From assembly GCA_005888635.1 (NCBI GenBank), contig VBAW01000037.1, forward strand, positions 1 through 33,249: DNA of 33,249 bases, in the 5' to 3' direction. Shown in pieces: positions 9,754-16,733 of this stretch (the stretch's first letter is position 1; each line of letters starts with the position of its first letter). This DNA comes from Candidatus Bathyarchaeota archaeon. GTDB taxonomy: Archaea > Thermoproteota > Bathyarchaeia > 40CM-2-53-6. The notes beneath the pieces were generated by a model, which worked only from the letters and a program-made list of their open reading frames with translations, did not search any database and was not told the origin of the DNA. The position numbers were made by a program, and so were the translations under genes.

Positions 9754-10119
9754 ATGTCGCAAGAGTTCGCATACAAGCAAGCGCTGATAATCCGATTAGA
9801 CCTGAAGATTGGTCGGGGAAAGATTGCTGTCCAGTGTTCTCATGCTGCAGTAGGCGCCGCTGAAGACGCGCGCACACGCTTTCCCCAATGGTGGAAGGGA
9901 TGGCTAGGAGATGGTCAGCGAAAGATAGCTCTTAAGGTGCCCGACCTCGACGCATTGTTGAATCTTGAGAACAATGCAAGGAGGAATCGGCTTCCCGTCT
10001 GTCTCGTCCGGGACAGGGGTCTCACTCAAGTGCCTCCAGACACGGTTACCTGCGTCGGAATAGGCCCTGCCCCTTCGAACCTAGTAGACAATCTAACTGG
10101 TGATCTGGCCCTTCTTTGA
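9754..10119 (+). CDS. pth2: Peptidyl-tRNA hydrolase, archaeal type (Pth2)
   Basis: Recycles peptidyl-tRNA released prematurely from ribosomes. At 121 residues it is the usual Pth2 size. Family motifs: KQALIIRLDLKIGRGKIAVQ with the catalytic-site lysine and the following CSHAAVGA, QRKIALKV, LPVCLVRDRGLTQVPPDT and TCVGIGPAP. The ATG start follows a GGGAA sequence closely. The last 27 nt overlap, tail to tail, the gene on the other strand at 10093-10482. Confidence 0.95.
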   Translation: MSQEFAYKQALIIRLDLKIGRGKIAVQCSHAAVGAAEDARTRFPQWWKGWLGDGQRKIALKVPDLDALLNLENNARRNRLPVCLVRDRGLTQVPPDTVTCVGIGPAPSNLVDNLTGDLALL

Positions 10120-10482
10120 CCTCACGGAGTCAGCGGAATCTTCCGGGACTCCGTGCCTGTGCGAGAGTATCTCGTATCGCCTCTTTGCATCAGCAACATA
10201 CTCTGTGAACTCCGTGTCGATTGTTTCTTTGAAACTGGACCCGGTTTTTTGGAACAGCTTTCTAAGTATTATGCGTTCAATGACTTTCGAGGCCCCGCCA
10301 AGTGACTTTCTCAGTCCGGCCACAAAGTCCGTCACGCGACCTGGAATCTCTTCACGCGGGAGGGAACATATCGTCAGGAGATACTGATACATTGCTTGGC
10401 GTGGCTCATTACCAAGGACAGAGAGCCCTTCGTCAATACACTCTAGGAGAAGCTGCTCGAAAGGCTGGGCGCGCGTAGTCAA
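10093..10482 (-). CDS. Helical NitrOD5-like domain protein
   Basis: 129 residues, predicted mostly alpha-helical and soluble. The region at about 15-85 (EGLSVLGNEPRQAMYQYL, REEIPGRVTDFVAGL, GGASKVIERIILRKLF) resembles the NitrOD5 output domain described for thaumarchaeal signalling proteins; this is recognition from memory and is moderate. The last 25 residues are charged and overlap pth2. The TTG start overlaps the stop of the membrane sensor (TTGA), so the two are probably co-translated and may form a sensor-output pair. It has no DNA-binding motif I can name. Confidence 0.6.
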   Translation of the reverse strand: MTTRAQPFEQLLLECIDEGLSVLGNEPRQAMYQYLLTICSLPREEIPGRVTDFVAGLRKSLGGASKVIERIILRKLFQKTGSSFKETIDTEFTEYVADAKRRYEILSHRHGVPEDSADSVRSKKGQITS

Positions 10483-12353
10483 GCCCTGATTTCCCCAGAG
10501 GACTCCCTAGCACCTAACAATGGCTCCTCGTCATAGCTTCTTTCTTGTCGGGCTCCCTGTAGCTTGATGACCTTGAGACCTTCGAAATTGAAGCGCAGCT
10601 GTGATCGGAACAGACCTTGTACCGCTCCTAGAGCTCTTGGTTCAAGTGCGCCATAGTTTATCAGCACTAGAATTGAAGCTGTCTCGTTTTCCGTCATTTC
10701 TACTACAGATGAGAGGACACCATAGGCTTTCTCAAATCCTTGTGAGAGAATGATATCTGTGAAAACATCGAACACTATTCCGATTCTCTTCTTTGAAAGG
10801 GCTTGCAGGAGCTTGTCCACTGCATCTAGAAGAAGCGAGGTATCTCGCTCGGGCAGTAAGACTTGTTCATCGGAAAGTCTTGCAGGACTCGAGGTCTTTG
10901 TGCTGAAGCTGAAGAGACTGATGTTTCTCTGATCTCTGAACTCACGGTAAATGGGGCTACCCGCACTGGTGAAGATTGCGATCGATTCAACGTTTGCTTG
11001 GAACTCTCTCACGAATTTTTGGACGATTTCTTCGTAGTCGCTGGTGGGCTCATATTCTAGCAGCAGTCGGTTTCCTAGAATATCTTGATGCTTCATATTG
11101 AACATGCTCGAAAAAGTGTCTTGTTGCATCGCCAAGTCAATCACCCGCGCGGTCGGGTTGACTCTCTGGAGCAAATCAAGTATTCCCGCGTGGGCTCCAT
11201 CTACGTTCAAAGCCCAGATTCGTCCAACGTGTCTGGATCTGGGAGTAGAGTCTGGGATCGTTATCGTGCCAATTAGGTCCTCACAGCGATCTAGGTCAAG
11301 TTCATCAAGATCCACTAGTTCTCTCCTTTCACCCGAAACAAACGAAGGTAAAGGACCGTCTAGCTCCCCTGATGATATCGATTCTATCGGTTGGATAGTA
11401 ACCGAATGCTCCCCAGGGGTGGAGCTTAGTAGGCCCGAGCCTTTCAGTATGGCACGGTAGAATGGCACTTCAGCCTTTGTAACCTGACAAACTACGTCCT
11501 GCCCTGTTGCTAATCCATCCTTCACAAACGTCTCGACTAGGTTTCTCCGATCGGATTCGGTATTATAGAGCACTATCGTGTCAATGCGGGGGTTAGAGTA
11601 CACAGCCCGGCTTACAGTCTCTCCTGACGTTACGATCCTTCCGAGGATTGTGGGTTCACGTAAGGCAAAGGCAATCAGCACAAAGAGAAGACTATCGGCG
11701 ACAGATCCGATGCTCTGGGATGTCGGAAGGAAGAGCCCACCTGCCGCAACTTGGAAAAGCGTTAGCACACCGAAGCAAGCCCAACAGAGGCTGATGATTT
11801 TCATGGATAGAGAGGCTTTCCTGTCTTGAACGGTTTTCGACTGGTGGAAAAATGAGAGAACGGGCAGGGAGACGAAACAGACTAGCAGAAGAGCGCTCGT
11901 TGCAACGTACCAGATCTGATATGAGAAATAATAGTAGGTCACTCCCCCAAAGGAGGTTTGATTTAGCGACCAGGGATTGAAGATAAAACCAGATGCAGTC
12001 CAGACTAGGACGGCCGTCAGGAAGATCAGGAAAGGCAATGGCGGTTTTGAAACAAATCTTCTCAGTCTCCAGATTCGTCGAGGATCGGTCTCGTCACAGT
12101 TTCGTAGGAGATATGACGCGACTCCGATAGAAGTTGCCATGATCGCTGTTAATGCGACGTCAATGAGTGGGGATACTGGGACCTCAAAGGCGTGAGCGTA
12201 CGTACTCTCGGCGAGAAATAGAATAAACCCTACATTTGCGAGAGCTATGAAGAATCCTGAATCCAGAAAGTACGTTTTCTTTGCGCGAAGAATGAAGTAT
12301 AACGCTGAGCATGAAGCGGTAAGCGCCAGAAAGTCTAGGACGTTAATCAGAAT
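10479..12353 (-). CDS. Seven-helix membrane sensor with degenerate KaiC/DUF835-like cytoplasmic domains, ATT start
   Basis: From ATT 12353 the protein has 624 residues. Seven hydrophobic segments are visible: about 3-22, 33-49, 62-85, 105-125, 145-168, 184-208 and 215-231. Two cytoplasmic alpha/beta domains follow. The first begins near RIDTIVLYNTESDRRNLVETF. The second (GNRLLLEYEPTSDYEEIV onward, with RIGIVFDVFTDIILSQGF) resembles DUF835/MEDS-type degenerate RecA folds and has no Walker A. The first conventional start, ATG 12140, falls inside helix 3 and would delete two and a half helices. GAGGT lies 4 nt before the ATT. An ATG at 12374 overlaps the AbrB stop (ATGA) but meets an in-frame TAG two codons later. 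It is probably a membrane sensor acting with the downstream NitrOD5-like protein. Confidence 0.7.
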   Translation of the reverse strand: MLINVLDFLALTASCSALYFILRAKKTYFLDSGFFIALANVGFILFLAESTYAHAFEVPVSPLIDVALTAIMATSIGVASYLLRNCDETDPRRIWRLRRFVSKPPLPFLIFLTAVLVWTASGFIFNPWSLNQTSFGGVTYYYFSYQIWYVATSALLLVCFVSLPVLSFFHQSKTVQDRKASLSMKIISLCWACFGVLTLFQVAAGGLFLPTSQSIGSVADSLLFVLIAFALREPTILGRIVTSGETVSRAVYSNPRIDTIVLYNTESDRRNLVETFVKDGLATGQDVVCQVTKAEVPFYRAILKGSGLLSSTPGEHSVTIQPIESISSGELDGPLPSFVSGERRELVDLDELDLDRCEDLIGTITIPDSTPRSRHVGRIWALNVDGAHAGILDLLQRVNPTARVIDLAMQQDTFSSMFNMKHQDILGNRLLLEYEPTSDYEEIVQKFVREFQANVESIAIFTSAGSPIYREFRDQRNISLFSFSTKTSSPARLSDEQVLLPERDTSLLLDAVDKLLQALSKKRIGIVFDVFTDIILSQGFEKAYGVLSSVVEMTENETASILVLINYGALEPRALGAVQGLFRSQLRFNFEGLKVIKLQGARQERSYDEEPLLGARESSGEIRA

Positions 12354-12370
12354 GTTGACCTCAGGCTATT

Positions 12371-12565
12371 TCATTCTCTTTTCTCATCAACGATTTGGTT
12401 TTCGTCTTTCTTGAGTTCGTAGACTAGTTTGACCGAATCCTGATTCTCGTTGAGGCTTAGCTGAAAGTCAGATGATGAAGCAACCCCGAGTAAGCGCGCA
12501 ATGTCAACTGGAATCAGGAGGTAGAGGCTATCTCTCAGCTTGACGGGACGGACCTTCAGTGTCAC
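12371..12565 (-). CDS. AbrB/MazE-like DNA-binding protein
   Basis: 64 residues. The N-terminal 45 residues (KVRPVKLRDSLYLLIPVDIARLLGV) show the swapped-hairpin AbrB/SpoVT pattern, a dimeric DNA-binding fold of antitoxin and transition-state regulators. The last 15 residues are charged. GTG start; no toxin gene of the usual kind follows. It is the first gene of a probable operon with the membrane sensor and the NitrOD5-like gene. A perfect 9-bp palindrome lies 7 nt upstream of the start, which suggests autoregulation. Confidence 0.72.
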   Translation of the reverse strand: MTLKVRPVKLRDSLYLLIPVDIARLLGVASSSDFQLSLNENQDSVKLVYELKKDENQIVDEKRE

Positions 12566-12571
12566 GCAGAG

Positions 12572-12595
12572 TCAACTTTGTAGGCGCAAAGTTGA
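12572..12595. promoter_or_regulatory. Perfect 9-bp palindrome, candidate operator
   Basis: Arms TCAACTTTG (12572-12580) and CAAAGTTGA (12587-12595) with a 6-nt spacer, immediately upstream of the AbrB-like gene. It is a plausible operator for a dimeric regulator. It could also form an RNA hairpin over the translation start. A terminator for the upstream TackOD1-like gene is less likely because no T-run follows on the minus strand. Confidence 0.6.
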
Positions 12596-12638
12596 ACGGA
12601 GGGATGGGAATGCTGGAACCAGTGAGCATGATGTGCGG

Positions 12639-13649
12639 TTACAGCTGCAAATCTCCCAACGATTCTTCGTTGCCGGAGAGTCCTGCCCATCCAAACTTGT
12701 CCTTGATTTGGTCTGCCGCCTGCTGCGAGTTTTCTGCTTCTATCGTAGAGATTCTGTAGAGACCAGCCAGCCTCTTCGCTTTCTCGGTTAGCCCTGGGAT
12801 AGCGACGAGAATCGACTGAGTTGGAGTGACGTCGAAAATCTTCGCGTACATTGAAGCGACGGGCACTTCGTCGATCTGCTTCTCGCTGGCTATGAGATCA
12901 AGCACTAGCACTTCGGAAGAGCCTTTCGTTGCGACTGCGTCAAACCTGTGCAGCGTGCCGGATCGGCCGGCGATCTGGCCGGGCATCTCCACTTTAAACT
13001 GGAAATCTTCGAGGACAACTCCTATGGGTTTCATGATCAGATAGCTACGCTTGAATTCCTCCTCCGCCTCAGAACCGAGCCTGTAAGCATAGATGTTGAC
13101 GAATCCAGTGTCCCTTATGGTGAAAATGCGGCCACAGTTTCTGCATCGGTGTATTGGACTCGGCATGTCGGAGCGTTTTCCGCATTGACTACACTGAAAC
13201 CAAGCGCCAAGTTTCTGATAATCAACTCCTGCCTCGAGTAGCTCCTTGTTGCATTTCGGGCAGAGCAGGCCTCCCTCCACGAGAAAGTTGTCGACGCTGT
13301 CTATGTTTCCACATGCGGTATGTTCCAGAAGAGTCTTACGTTCGATATCTATGGAATTGCAGTTAGGGCAGACATAATCGTTACTTACGTTGACAGATAA
13401 GCACGAAGGACAGACAAGAATTTTCTCGTGAAACTTGCGCTTGAAAATGCCCACGTCCCAGAGCTTTTCAACCAACTGTTTCGCGGCGCCCGAATCTCCC
13501 TCGACAATCTCCTCCACCTCTGGGTATCTGACGGTCTGATTCAGATCGAAGCTCGGGACCAGCTCAACTATTTCTCCTCTAACGAACTTACTTAGAAGTA
13601 GCTGTACCGATGGATCCTGATACAGGGCTAGCCTATCCTTCGATGTCAC
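12639..13649 (-). CDS. TackOD1-like zinc-ribbon protein with nuclease-fold-like C-terminus
   Basis: 336 residues. The middle part carries many metal-binding pairs: Cys80/83, Cys94/97, His110/Cys113, Cys130/133, Cys153/156 and Cys169/172, which fits the thaumarchaeal output domain TackOD1. Residues 225-315 (TLHRFDAVATKGSSEVLVLDL, SILVAIPGLTEKAKRL) look like a PD-(D/E)xK nuclease fold with Asp237 and Asp251, but a clear catalytic lysine pair is not obvious, so it may be inactive. The N-terminal 70 residues are a helical region. The GTG start is 150 bp from the divergent KaiC-like gene. It probably acts as an output or DNA-binding component; the function is unproven. Confidence 0.65.
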   Translation of the reverse strand: MTSKDRLALYQDPSVQLLLSKFVRGEIVELVPSFDLNQTVRYPEVEEIVEGDSGAAKQLVEKLWDVGIFKRKFHEKILVCPSCLSVNVSNDYVCPNCNSIDIERKTLLEHTACGNIDSVDNFLVEGGLLCPKCNKELLEAGVDYQKLGAWFQCSQCGKRSDMPSPIHRCRNCGRIFTIRDTGFVNIYAYRLGSEAEEEFKRSYLIMKPIGVVLEDFQFKVEMPGQIAGRSGTLHRFDAVATKGSSEVLVLDLIASEKQIDEVPVASMYAKIFDVTPTQSILVAIPGLTEKAKRLAGLYRISTIEAENSQQAADQIKDKFGWAGLSGNEESLGDLQL

Positions 13650-13799
13650 GCCTGGCGACGCCTAGTTATGTTATCGCAGACTCTTCTGCCAAACCGAACC
13701 GGGTCTCCAGCGATATGCGTTCAATGTACCCTTTTCGTGAAGGTTAGCGTATCAGAATGAATATGCTTTCGAGACCTCGGTGGGAGCTTTGGAAGATTC

Positions 13800-14564
13800 A
13801 TGGCCGACACTGCGGCCGATCGATCGGCCAATTCTAGGACGCCAACCGGAATCCCGGGACTCGATAAGCTGCTGACTGGCGGCCTGCCCAAGAATAGAAC
13901 CATTCTTCTATGCGGCGGTCCAGGAACTGGAAAGACGATTATGTCATCACAATTTCTGGTCAACGGAATACTAGACTACGAAGATCCGGGAGTCTATGTC
14001 AGTCTCGACGAGAACAAAGTTCACGTTTTTGAAGAGATGTTGGACTTCGGATGGGACTTTGAAGACTTAGAGAGTAACAAGAAGCTCATCTTTCTAGAGG
14101 CTTCCCCAATTAGATATCTTCCAGCCGAAATCAAAGTTGGAAAATTGACTGTCGGTCGGAAGGAATTTTCGATGGCAACGCTGATCGAAATGATAAAGAC
14201 TAGCGTAAAGGAAATCGGCGCAAAACGGATCGTTGTTGATCCGGTAACAACCCTAGTCTTCCAATATGACGGAGTTGTTGCTCAACGCAATGCGCTGGTA
14301 GAGTTGATGGAAGCGCTCGCCGACACTGGCGCAACATGCCTGATCACGACAGAACTAAGACGACCCGGATTTGAAAGAAGCATAGATTACGAGGAATATC
14401 TAGCGCATGGCGTGATTCTGTTGCAGCAGTTGCAGGTGGGAAAATCGCTCCTGAGAGTTATCCAGATCGAGAAGATGCGCAAGACCCCTGTTGACAATCA
14501 GCCGCGACCATACAGGATTACCGACACGGGAATCGAAGTATTCCCAAGAGAAAGCGTTCTCTAG
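13800..14564 (+). CDS. KaiC/RAD55-like ATPase
   Basis: Single-domain RecA-superfamily ATPase, 254 residues. It opens with the KaiC-type GIPGLDKLLTGGLP (17-30), Walker A GGPGTGKT (39-46) and the Walker B region RIVVDPVTTLV. The position of the KaiC catalytic glutamate pair reads DEN (VYVSLDENKV). The C-terminal part (LLRVIQIEKMRKTP, GIEVFPRES) matches stand-alone archaeal KaiC homologues, which act in signalling rather than circadian timing. It is the only plus-strand gene of the island, divergent from the TackOD1-like gene and tail to tail with the next KaiC gene; both stop codons share CTAG at 14561-14564. Confidence 0.88.
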   Translation: MADTAADRSANSRTPTGIPGLDKLLTGGLPKNRTILLCGGPGTGKTIMSSQFLVNGILDYEDPGVYVSLDENKVHVFEEMLDFGWDFEDLESNKKLIFLEASPIRYLPAEIKVGKLTVGRKEFSMATLIEMIKTSVKEIGAKRIVVDPVTTLVFQYDGVVAQRNALVELMEALADTGATCLITTELRRPGFERSIDYEEYLAHGVILLQQLQVGKSLLRVIQIEKMRKTPVDNQPRPYRITDTGIEVFPRESVL

Positions 14565-15628
14565 CTCTGCAAGCCGCTGCTAGTCGGCATGATCAATCCC
14601 AAACCCGGATCTCTGTTGTACGGTGTCCACGTAGTCACATGACGTGCACCCTTCATCTTTGGGACTCGAATGTATCTAGCGAGCCCGTCCTTTGTATCCT
14701 CTGCTTTCATTTCTATCACGCCGTCTACCTTGTCCTGAATACCCGCGATGATTGCAGGATGAAAGGCCTTCCTGGAAAGAGATGTTACGCAACTTGCTTT
14801 ACAACTTCGGATCTTTGCAACTAGAGTGTGGAGAAAGTCGAATGAGGGCCTGACTCCACTCCTCTGCAACAAGGTGGTCAAAGAATCCATTGCCAGCAGG
14901 GTGTTGCTCGGGTCACGGGATTCAGAAAGTGCTTTGGAGACGACGATACTCAGGTCAGAGAGGCGCTGAGGGTCCTCGCTATACTGCTCTTTGCTCTTTA
15001 CCCCTACAAGAAAAGAGTAGCAGTCGATGAAAACGAGTCTGCGGCGTCCTTCAATTTCGTATTTTTGTGGATCTATCCCCATCATACGCATGGATTCTCG
15101 CACGCTATCTGGAAAGTCGTCGAGGCTTGCGTAGACAACGTTCCTATCTTTCTTGAGTGCCTCGACAACAAGCTGGGTAAGCAGTGTTGTCTTTCCAGTA
15201 GCGGGATCTCCCATGACCAAGACAACGGAGGTCGAAGGATAGCCCTCGGGGAGGAGTTCGTCAACTATTCCTATCCCAGTCATTTCTCTTGATGAAGATC
15301 TCTCCGTCTCGTCTCCGGATGGAGGCGATATCAGTCTCTTTGATATCTCTCGTTGCAACTCTTGATCTCTCGCCTTGTTGAAGGAGACCGTCCTAACTTC
15401 CTTGAGAAGTCCGAGCTCGACAAGATCCGACACGTCTCGGTCTATCTCCTTCGGGTTCCGATGGATCTTATTGGCGATTCCTTCAACAGTGTCAGTAGAT
15501 TCAGGGTTTTCGTGGAAAAACATTAGGAGTTCGGCCTTTGTCTCTGAACCGATCAGTTTCTCTATCAGATCTGCTTTTGGGGACCCCTTATCGAGCCGAC
15601 CGCTACTTTTGTTCTCCAGAGGGGGCAC
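14561..15628 (-). CDS. Winged-helix/KaiC-like ATPase fusion
   Basis: 355 residues. The first 95 residues form a probable winged helix-turn-helix (TVEGIANKIHRNPKEIDRDV, LVELGLLKEVRTVSF). The rest is a KaiC-like ATPase with GIGIVDELLPEGYP, Walker A GDPATGKT, YASLDDFPDSV and Walker B-like LLAMDSLTTLL. The combination suggests a DNA-binding ATPase whose regulatory output depends on nucleotide state. It lies 19 nt downstream of another KaiC-like gene and is probably in the same operon. The GTG start overlaps a GAGGGTG sequence, so the exact start is uncertain (CTG 15619 is possible). Confidence 0.85.
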   Translation of the reverse strand: MPPLENKSSGRLDKGSPKADLIEKLIGSETKAELLMFFHENPESTDTVEGIANKIHRNPKEIDRDVSDLVELGLLKEVRTVSFNKARDQELQREISKRLISPPSGDETERSSSREMTGIGIVDELLPEGYPSTSVVLVMGDPATGKTTLLTQLVVEALKKDRNVVYASLDDFPDSVRESMRMMGIDPQKYEIEGRRRLVFIDCYSFLVGVKSKEQYSEDPQRLSDLSIVVSKALSESRDPSNTLLAMDSLTTLLQRSGVRPSFDFLHTLVAKIRSCKASCVTSLSRKAFHPAIIAGIQDKVDGVIEMKAEDTKDGLARYIRVPKMKGARHVTTWTPYNRDPGLGLIMPTSSGLQS

Positions 15629-15647
15629 CCTCAGATCCAGTATCGTA

Positions 15648-16388
15648 TTACCGGATCTTGTCGGGTGGGATCGGGGTCGGTGCTAGGGCGAATCCCTCTC
15701 GGGTGATATAGTAATCATAGCCTTCAAGGCGGTGTTCTGTCCCTCGCATCTTGGGAATGTAGATGCGCCGTCGCACTCTCGAATTGTCAAAGCTGGCGTC
15801 AAGAACGATGAGGCCGTCTCCCAAGAATTCCTCGAAGTTCGTGCCCAACTGTTGCTTTCCCCACGGGACTTCGCTTATCATCAGTGTTGTGCAGTTGGCC
15901 GCTTCCAAGAATTTTAGCATGATGTGGAGGAAGCTCCTAGCCTCGGCTGTGCTTTCGAACGCTGTCATTAGGGCCGACAGGGAGTCGAATACTAGCCTTC
16001 TAGCATTGATGCTATGCAAGGCTTCGAGCACGGTCTCTAGTGCGGTGCTTACGCCTGCCTTCATGGTGGATTGTAGTGAGACTAGTTGGAGTTTTCCTTC
16101 CTTCTCTAGCCGATCAAGGTCCCAGCCGAAACGTCGAGCGTTGCGCTTCAGTTTTTCACCGCTCTCTATGACGGAGGCGTAGACTCCATTCTCGTTGCAC
16201 CTGACTGCTCCGTGGTAGAGGAACTGCAGACCGAGGGTGGTTTTTCCCGTTCCGGGCTGACCAGCAACGATTATTGTGTCTCCCCTAGCTAATCCGCCTT
16301 CGATTATCTTGTCCAGGCTCGGGATGCCTGTTTGGGCCCTTTCATCGTTCTGCTGTAGGGTTGGGGCGATGGGTCTGCGGGTCTCCAT
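15648..16388 (-). CDS. KaiC/RAD55-like ATPase
   Basis: 246-residue single-domain KaiC homologue: TGIPSLDKIIEGGLARGD, Walker A GQPGTGKT (about 44-51), VYASVIESGEKL and Walker B RRLVFDSLSALM. A C-terminal KMRGTEHRLEGYDYYI motif is typical of archaeal KaiC-like proteins. The start ATG overlaps the stop of the upstream winged-helix gene (TAATG) and has GGAGG 10 nt before it. It is probably an ATP-dependent signalling or oligomerising component. It differs from the other two KaiC proteins in the window enough that they are not recent copies, judged by eye. Confidence 0.9.
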   Translation of the reverse strand: METRRPIAPTLQQNDERAQTGIPSLDKIIEGGLARGDTIIVAGQPGTGKTTLGLQFLYHGAVRCNENGVYASVIESGEKLKRNARRFGWDLDRLEKEGKLQLVSLQSTMKAGVSTALETVLEALHSINARRLVFDSLSALMTAFESTAEARSFLHIMLKFLEAANCTTLMISEVPWGKQQLGTNFEEFLGDGLIVLDASFDNSRVRRRIYIPKMRGTEHRLEGYDYYITREGFALAPTPIPPDKIR

Positions 16389-16615
16389 TACTTCTCATCC
16401 TCCAAGGACCAGAGTTTGACTGGTCCGACTTGTCGGAAGTTGACCATTCGCTTAGCTCTAAGGACATGCAGATACTTCGATGCGGTGGACCGGTTGACCC
16501 TGAGGTCTCTGGCTATCTCGCCGATTGAACTGCTGGGTCTCTCACCAAGGGTGTGAACGATCTTATCTTCGATAATATCTAGGTGACCATCTTCAACTTC
16601 TAATCTGGTTGTCAA
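16388..16615 (-). CDS. Small winged-helix DNA-binding protein
   Basis: 75 residues, nearly all winged helix: IIEDKIVHTLGERPSSSIG (helix 1-2), EIARDLRVNRSTASKYLHVL (recognition helix-turn-helix), then the wing RMVNFRQVGPVKLWSLE. It resembles ArsR/IclR-type one-domain regulators. It is the first gene of the wHTH-KaiC-KaiC operon, so it may control its own operon and bind the KaiC partner. TTG start at 16615 lies in the second of two GTCAACT repeats. Confidence 0.82.
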   Translation of the reverse strand: MTTRLEVEDGHLDIIEDKIVHTLGERPSSSIGEIARDLRVNRSTASKYLHVLRAKRMVNFRQVGPVKLWSLEDEK

Positions 16616-16629
16616 CTCTGACTGTCAAC
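16611..16629. repeat. Tandem GTCAACT repeats at the wHTH gene start
   Basis: GTCAACT occurs at 16611-16617 and again at 16623-16629, a 12-bp period, about one helical turn. The repeats overlap the start codon and the region just upstream of the winged-helix gene. A related sequence (AGTTGACTCTG on the minus strand) lies beside the AbrB palindrome. It may be an operator, but could be chance. Confidence 0.35.
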
Positions 16630-16733
16630 TGAGAGCGTCAGCCCTGATTATCATAAAGCGCGTGTTACCGGCACAGCAAGCTAACAGTCATCCCGAAGCC
16701 GCTAAATGCTAATCTGCTCTAGACTAGGGATTG

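Follow-up and report, generated by a model that had tools for sequence, protein, structure and literature searches.

A KaiC-based gene island in a Bathyarchaeota genome as a candidate transmembrane signalling cassette

A soil Bathyarchaeota genome (Candidatus Bathyarchaeota archaeon, assembly GCA_005888635.1) yielded 29 KaiC matches against one receiver (REC) domain and two HATPase_c matches. With almost no two-component genes and dozens of KaiC matches, the route by which an outside signal might reach KaiC comes into question, and an island of eight predicted open reading frames (ORFs) on contig VBAW01000037.1 may bear on it. The island lies at 10093-16615 of the stretch analysed (33,249 nucleotides, the window), with seven ORFs on the minus strand and one, KaiC1, on the plus strand. 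It encodes three KaiC proteins (KaiC1, KaiC3 and wHTH-KaiC), a membrane receptor (the sensor), a small NitrOD5-like protein, a TackOD1 protein, an AbrB-like protein and a winged helix-turn-helix (wHTH) protein (table 1). All eight genes claimed in a first-pass annotation of this DNA were present and, in agreement with it, Pfam and NCBIfam scans of the island proteins found no histidine kinase (HK) and no receiver domain. Elsewhere in the genome, the sole receiver domain adjoins the best HATPase_c match (G000:C56:183652-184331), apparently as a lone two-component pair.

The island probably represents a KaiC-based transmembrane signalling cassette together with its outputs, that is, a modular system of a receptor with pseudo-KaiC domains, a KaiC and an adaptor. 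Its core consists of KaiC3, the sensor and the NitrOD5-like protein, a point which the first-pass annotation had missed. The decisive evidence is the recurrence of this cluster across the class, not local synteny. A membrane protein whose cytoplasmic part is a dead KaiC, and whose gene accompanies those of a live KaiC and an adaptor in more than one family, provides a concrete and testable answer to the question above, the proposed route leading from pseudo-enzyme docking at the membrane to an ATPase ring and from there to a DNA-binding partner.

The receptor cassette across the class

A profile of the sensor was searched against 257 genomes of the class, and 28 loci were examined. Homologues of the sensor were found in several families outside the order of the window. 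At seven loci in families f20, f21, f22 and f67 (L195, L196, L199, L202, L209, L213 and L214), genes for a KaiC, a receptor with seven transmembrane segments (7TM) and a NitrOD5-like protein are lined up in this order on the same strand, tens of bases apart or overlapping. The order KaiC, NitrOD5-like protein, receptor with one transmembrane (TM) segment was seen at L197, L212 and L216, while at L217 the receptor and the KaiC/NitrOD5-like pair are divergently oriented. Two loci (L220, L222) hold KaiC and receptor only, and at three more (L198, L201, L219) the contig ends after these two genes. Some receptor homologues lack a neighbouring KaiC; among these are four copies in a single genome (L204-L207), of which the two checked have no TM segment. 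In one of the tight cassettes the KaiC gene is broken into two frames by a stop (L214:6917-7609), indicating either decay or an assembly error.

The constant part of the receptor across the class is a C-terminal KaiC domain without a P-loop, and a hidden Markov model (HMM) of this domain also reaches true wHTH-KaiCs (E ~1e-6). The input parts vary, being 7TM, 7TM with MEDS (L195), or one TM segment with CARDB or Laminin_G_3 ectodomains, and the one-TM variants with extracellular domains occur in f11, f20 and f21. The receptor, the NitrOD5-like protein and KaiC are all found in the window's cluster, and KaiC3 belongs to the cognate clade described below.

Receptor, putative adaptor and ATPase

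The sensor had been described as a 7-helix protein with degenerate RecA-like domains, and both parts of this description were borne out. The ATG-started ORF covers 10479-12140 and leaves TM1-2 upstream of that ATG, but when the frame was extended upstream to 12365 seven hydrophobic segments were found (approximately residues 5-235, counted from 12365), followed by two alpha/beta domains, the first MEDS-like and the second DUF835-like. A motif check showed the P-loop GxxxxGK[ST] to be absent from all nine family sensors (9/9), making them pseudo-KaiCs, and the best PDB matches of the predicted sensor structure were two-domain (tandem-domain) KaiCs. The sensor scored 17.4 bits against MEDS (PF14417), below the curated cut-off of 29.8, which was passed by relatives (59.3 bits for the homologue at L195, 45.6 bits for a paralogue at L089); its second domain and the homologues of that domain were always under the curated cut-off for DUF835 (33.1 bits). 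The sensor is also the least conserved large part of the island (51-54% to most genus members).

The start of the sensor gene is puzzling. In the window clade no ATG, GTG or TTG lies ahead of TM1 (window 12335-12375). The ATGA overlap with the AbrB-like stop, noted in the first-pass annotation, is present, but its ATG runs in frame into AAA TAG and so cannot simply start the sensor. The sister clade has a coupled GTG or ATG with an in-frame TGA behind it at codon 4. The protein sequence of TM1 is conserved despite this puzzle, and recoding is a possibility. Reassignment of TAG or TGA at this start is not supported, because TAG terminates other genes here, e.g. KaiC1.

Paralogous receptors were also seen. 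In two genomes (L092:1222-3114, L089:17164-19056) a transcription factor B-like gene has a gene for a 7TM-MEDS-pseudo-KaiC receptor directly downstream, which suggests that receptors are tied to basal transcription factors. A third paralogous receptor is found near succinate dehydrogenase-like and HIT-family-like genes, again in two genomes (L091:4765-6507, L089:6389-8233). Neither paralogue adjoins a KaiC or NitrOD5-like gene.

The name NitrOD5-like, taken from the first-pass annotation, holds by way of intermediate sequences. The Pfam model for NitrOD5 (PF11537) had no match anywhere in the window's genome, and a direct Pfam assignment was dropped for this reason. Using hhalign, the family's NitrOD5-like protein matched a set of stand-alone NitrOD5-like proteins at 99.6%; that set in turn matched PF11537 weakly and REC-NitrOD5 at 78%, while a direct profile comparison of the family with REC-NitrOD5 was negative. 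Galperin et al. (PMC5847659) class NitrOD5 as archaeal death-domain-like.

The NitrOD5-like gene adjoins the sensor throughout the family (19 genomes, and G016, where a contig break separates the two). Outside the family it lies directly downstream of a two-domain KaiC in seven of ten loci, for which the probability by chance is <1e-6 (binomial on KaiC density, with loci taken as independent and some genomes related). A fusion of NitrOD5-like protein and MEDS occurs once (L116, MEDS E=1e-35), and a related NitrOD5-like domain is fused to KaiC in L134. In the window's own genome (contig C32, L095:4982-6966) two tandem NitrOD5-like genes lie directly upstream of a same-strand KaiC, and in a genome of another family (G022, L102:8288-10166) the same kit is rearranged into a cluster of wHTH, NitrOD5-like and wHTH-KaiC genes.

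The three KaiC proteins named in the first-pass annotation all exceeded the Pfam cut-off for the KaiC family (PF06745, 26.6 bits), with 219 bits for KaiC1, 197 for KaiC3 and 101 for wHTH-KaiC, and all three have a conserved Walker A motif (GGPGTGKT, GQPGTGKT and GDPATGKT, respectively). Conservation of KaiC1 and KaiC3 in the family averages ~91%. The closest PDB match of KaiC1 is the circadian KaiC, as would be expected of a timing device like that of cyanobacteria. However, the KaiC family is broad and most of its members are not clocks, KaiC1 and KaiC3 are single-domain proteins, and library scans of the island proteins found no KaiA or KaiB domain (KaiB was not searched genome-wide); a clock is extremely improbable.

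In a maximum likelihood tree of 35 KaiC domains, including only part of the genome's 29 KaiCs, KaiC3 was placed inside a clade of 20 rows (support 95/95) with cassette KaiCs and two-domain KaiCs. KaiC3 is proposed as the partner of the sensor because it falls in this clade of receptor-operon KaiCs, and judged by this placement it is likely the cognate ATPase. KaiC1 groups in the same tree with a paralogue and with the KaiC that adjoins wHTH-KaiC in family f4. A KaiC1-like gene beside wHTH-KaiC is also found outside the window's family (G028, G023), and wHTH-KaiC and KaiC1 are proposed as a second conserved pair.

Layout of the island and competing readings

The overlaps TTGA, TAATG and ATGA, which the first-pass annotation took to tie the parts together, do exist, but they do not bind all parts of the island. 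With KaiC1 on the plus strand the island is not one operon, and its genes likely form three or more transcription units distributed over both strands. The first (minus strand) runs from TackOD1 through the AbrB-like gene and the sensor to the NitrOD5-like gene, the second consists of KaiC1 alone, divergent from TackOD1, and the third (minus strand) runs from wHTH through KaiC3 to wHTH-KaiC and is tail-to-tail with KaiC1. At the TTGA junction (10479-10482) the TTG start of the NitrOD5-like gene overlaps the sensor stop, and at the TAATG junction (~16388) the wHTH stop overlaps the KaiC3 start. The 3' end of the NitrOD5-like gene overlaps the convergent pth2.

Table 1. Features of the island, with positions in the window
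Feature	Position	Strand	Remarks
NitrOD5-like small helical protein, putative 'death-domain-like' adaptor	10093..10482	-	129 aa
Membrane receptor (sensor): 7 TM, MEDS-like pseudo-KaiC, C-terminal DUF835-like pseudo-KaiC	10479..12365	-	without P-loop
AbrB/MazE-type swapped-hairpin candidate	12371..12565	-	64 aa; pattern only
TackOD1 protein: N-terminal helices, CxxC zinc ribbons (PF18551), C-terminal PD-(D/E)XK-like fold, degenerate active site	12639..13649	-	
TackOD1/KaiC1 divergent intergenic region	13650..13799	.	conserved 19-bp element at 13747-13765
KaiC1, single-domain KaiC ATPase, intact Walker motifs	13800..14564	+	Pfam match, P-loop
wHTH-KaiC: N-terminal winged-helix-like region and KaiC domain, DUF7504-like	14561..15628	-	
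KaiC3, single-domain KaiC	15648..16388	-	in tree with receptor-operon KaiCs
Winged-helix protein, ArsR-type HTH_5	16388..16615	-	75 aa

The first-pass annotation had staked its proposal of a membrane sensor signalling through KaiC without a histidine kinase on a conserved gene neighbourhood. Such conservation was found: gene order is unchanged wherever contigs allow (18 genus genomes, the window's own included, as well as G018 and G020), and the sensor/KaiC/NitrOD5-like cluster occurs in other families. That part of the proposal stands, while the tie by operon overlaps fails. In G019, from a further genus of the family, the sensor cluster was not found, this genome being 67% complete.

Several observations weigh against a single signalling cassette. 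The surrounding exosome, proteasome, pth2, IPK, GGPS and malic enzyme genes are equally unchanged in order; because these housekeeping flanks are just as syntenic, synteny within the family is weak evidence of linkage and was rejected as proof of it. The KaiC of the window lies outside the sensor's operon, KaiC3 and KaiC1 being in separate units and KaiC3 ~3.3 kb away from the sensor. The structural model of the sensor has low overall confidence (pLDDT 66, pTM 0.40), and alignment of the family-sensor profile with the profile of two-domain KaiCs did not reach significance, owing to the shallowness of the family alignment; the relation of sensor and KaiC rests instead on the fold matches and on the HMM built from C-terminal domains across the class. 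Finally, TackOD1 outside the family stands beside neither KaiC nor sensor.

The island could be an accident of position, with unrelated regulators collected in a stable stretch of housekeeping genes, flanked by the exosome/proteasome/pth2 cluster on one side and IPK-GGPS on the other. Such an accident would fit the family synteny, unbroken from the exosome genes through malic enzyme, the presence of genes on both strands, and the fact that nothing links TackOD1 or the AbrB-like protein to the rest outside the family. However, the sensor, KaiC and NitrOD5-like genes recur tightly in other families with other flanks, which already refutes an accident for these core three, and wHTH-KaiC and the KaiC1-like gene adjoin in f4 in a different orientation. 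For the island as a whole, an accident appears improbable.

A further alternative is that two independent KaiC systems lie side by side, one of KaiC3, sensor and NitrOD5-like protein and the other of wHTH-KaiC and KaiC1, with separate signals and outputs. Both occur separately in other families, and the KaiC tree splits KaiC1 from KaiC3, but wherever the contig permits, family genomes have both side by side, and KaiC3 shares a short operon with wHTH-KaiC. Two separate systems seem somewhat unlikely.

Proposed mechanism, related systems and putative outputs

If the island is a single KaiC-based cassette, the 7TM receptor would sense something at or outside the membrane. By computation the receptor has a pseudo-KaiC fold and has lost the P-loop, and its two cytoplasmic domains may act as a dock at which the assembly of a catalytic KaiC ring (most likely of KaiC3) is seeded or gated. 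The NitrOD5-like protein would bridge pseudo-KaiC and KaiC as an adaptor, a role suggested by the computed pairing and one fusion. The state of the ring might then be read by the wHTH protein (co-operonic with KaiC3), wHTH-KaiC and KaiC1, and also by TackOD1 and the AbrB-like protein; these readers would bind DNA or recruit partners, with possible local autoregulation through the element in the divergent TackOD1/KaiC1 promoter. Elsewhere in the class the system would take the compact form of KaiC, receptor/pseudo-KaiC and NitrOD5-like protein, with exchangeable input domains.

More tentatively, the cassette may be a modular system of transmembrane signalling general to archaea of the Bathyarchaeota class, not previously defined as such and used in place of bacterial histidine kinases, with 7TM, 7TM-MEDS and lectin- or CARDB-like ectodomains as input modules. 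Makarova, Galperin and Koonin reportedly proposed in mBio in 2017 that KaiC-like ATPases are signal transduction hubs in archaea (as cited in PMC5847659 and PMC13286277). That model and the present one share KaiC ATPases, inactivated KaiC domains and death-domain-like adaptors as signalling networks, but here the cassette is a defined one whose membrane receptor, polytopic or single-pass, ends in a pseudo-KaiC, and it recurs in several families of the class. The KaiC-hub concept is an already published hypothesis, of which the receptor cassette is a variant; in the literature searched, which excluded the text of Makarova et al. 2017, no description was found of such a cassette with exchangeable inputs as a system.

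A pair of KaiC (arCOG01174) and a DEATH-like helical protein (arCOG03758) is known from archaeal type IV pilus loci (Makarova et al. 2016, PMC4858521). There too a KaiC adjoins a small helical death-domain-like protein, but no receptor is named in the available part of that paper, whereas in the present case a membrane pseudo-KaiC receptor is added to the pair; next to the window copy there was no sign of pilus genes. MEDS and DUF835 are, according to PMC5847659, inactivated KaiC (iKaiC) domains of archaeal response regulators; here a MEDS-like and a DUF835-like domain stand one after the other on a 7TM protein that has neither REC nor HK. The output domains TackOD1 and NitrOD5 of the same source are likewise represented, TackOD1 over its Pfam cut-off and NitrOD5 through intermediates, but as stand-alone proteins not fused to REC, and with a PD-(D/E)XK-like fold assigned to the TackOD1 C-terminus. 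Haloferax CirA and CirD, KaiC-like regulators of motility and cell shape (PMC13286277), are similar as KaiC-like proteins acting in the regulation of gene expression, but they are euryarchaeal motility regulators, and the available text of that source describes no receptor cassette.

TackOD1, the AbrB-like protein and the wHTH protein are putative outputs, attached to the core at the level of family synteny only. The wHTH protein matched the ArsR-type HTH_5 (25.2 against a Pfam cut-off of 22), in line with its first annotation. The 64-aa AbrB-like protein is strongly conserved in the family but had no Pfam or NCBIfam match to any AbrB family, leaving its label without a basis other than pattern resemblance.

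TackOD1 was correctly named (PF18551, 126.6 bits against a cut-off of 32, E=1.1e-36), and most Cys pairs of its CxxC motifs are invariant or nearly so in 20 homologues. The structure model (pLDDT 86.5) has N-terminal helices, zinc ribbons and a separate C-terminal domain. Fold searches with this domain matched AF1548, EndoMS/NucS and Can2/Card1-type nucleases, so that the nuclease fold of the first-pass annotation stands, as a restriction-endonuclease-like fold, but a conserved catalytic triad is lacking. Several homologues have S or T in place of the acid of the H-x-F-D motif, a (D/E)xK lysine is not conserved, and the catalytic acid/lysine motif of PD-(D/E)XK nucleases is not kept; the invariant K270 and D273 sit in the following helix. 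TackOD1 probably does not act as an ordinary nuclease. The nuclease matches would speak for a defence or DNA-repair island centred on this domain, but besides the variable catalytic positions (F-D to F-S/T), the non-nuclease RPB5 matches the same fold and TackOD1 is present in 50 of 61 sampled genomes of the order and class, making such an island very improbable. TackOD1 was also considered as a KaiC partner outside the family, and no such adjacency was seen.

Two intergenic regions contain conserved elements. The 19-bp element GCGTATCAGAAYGAATATG in the divergent TackOD1/KaiC1 region is kept in nearly all of 20 loci. An exact copy occurs only once in the genome; a regulon around it was rejected on account of this single site, and a unique, conserved promoter element suggests local autoregulation. 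Between wHTH and IPK (window 16616-16730), the blocks ATCATAAG, TGTTACC and GTCA-CCCGAAG are conserved in most of 16 loci and form a possible wHTH operator.

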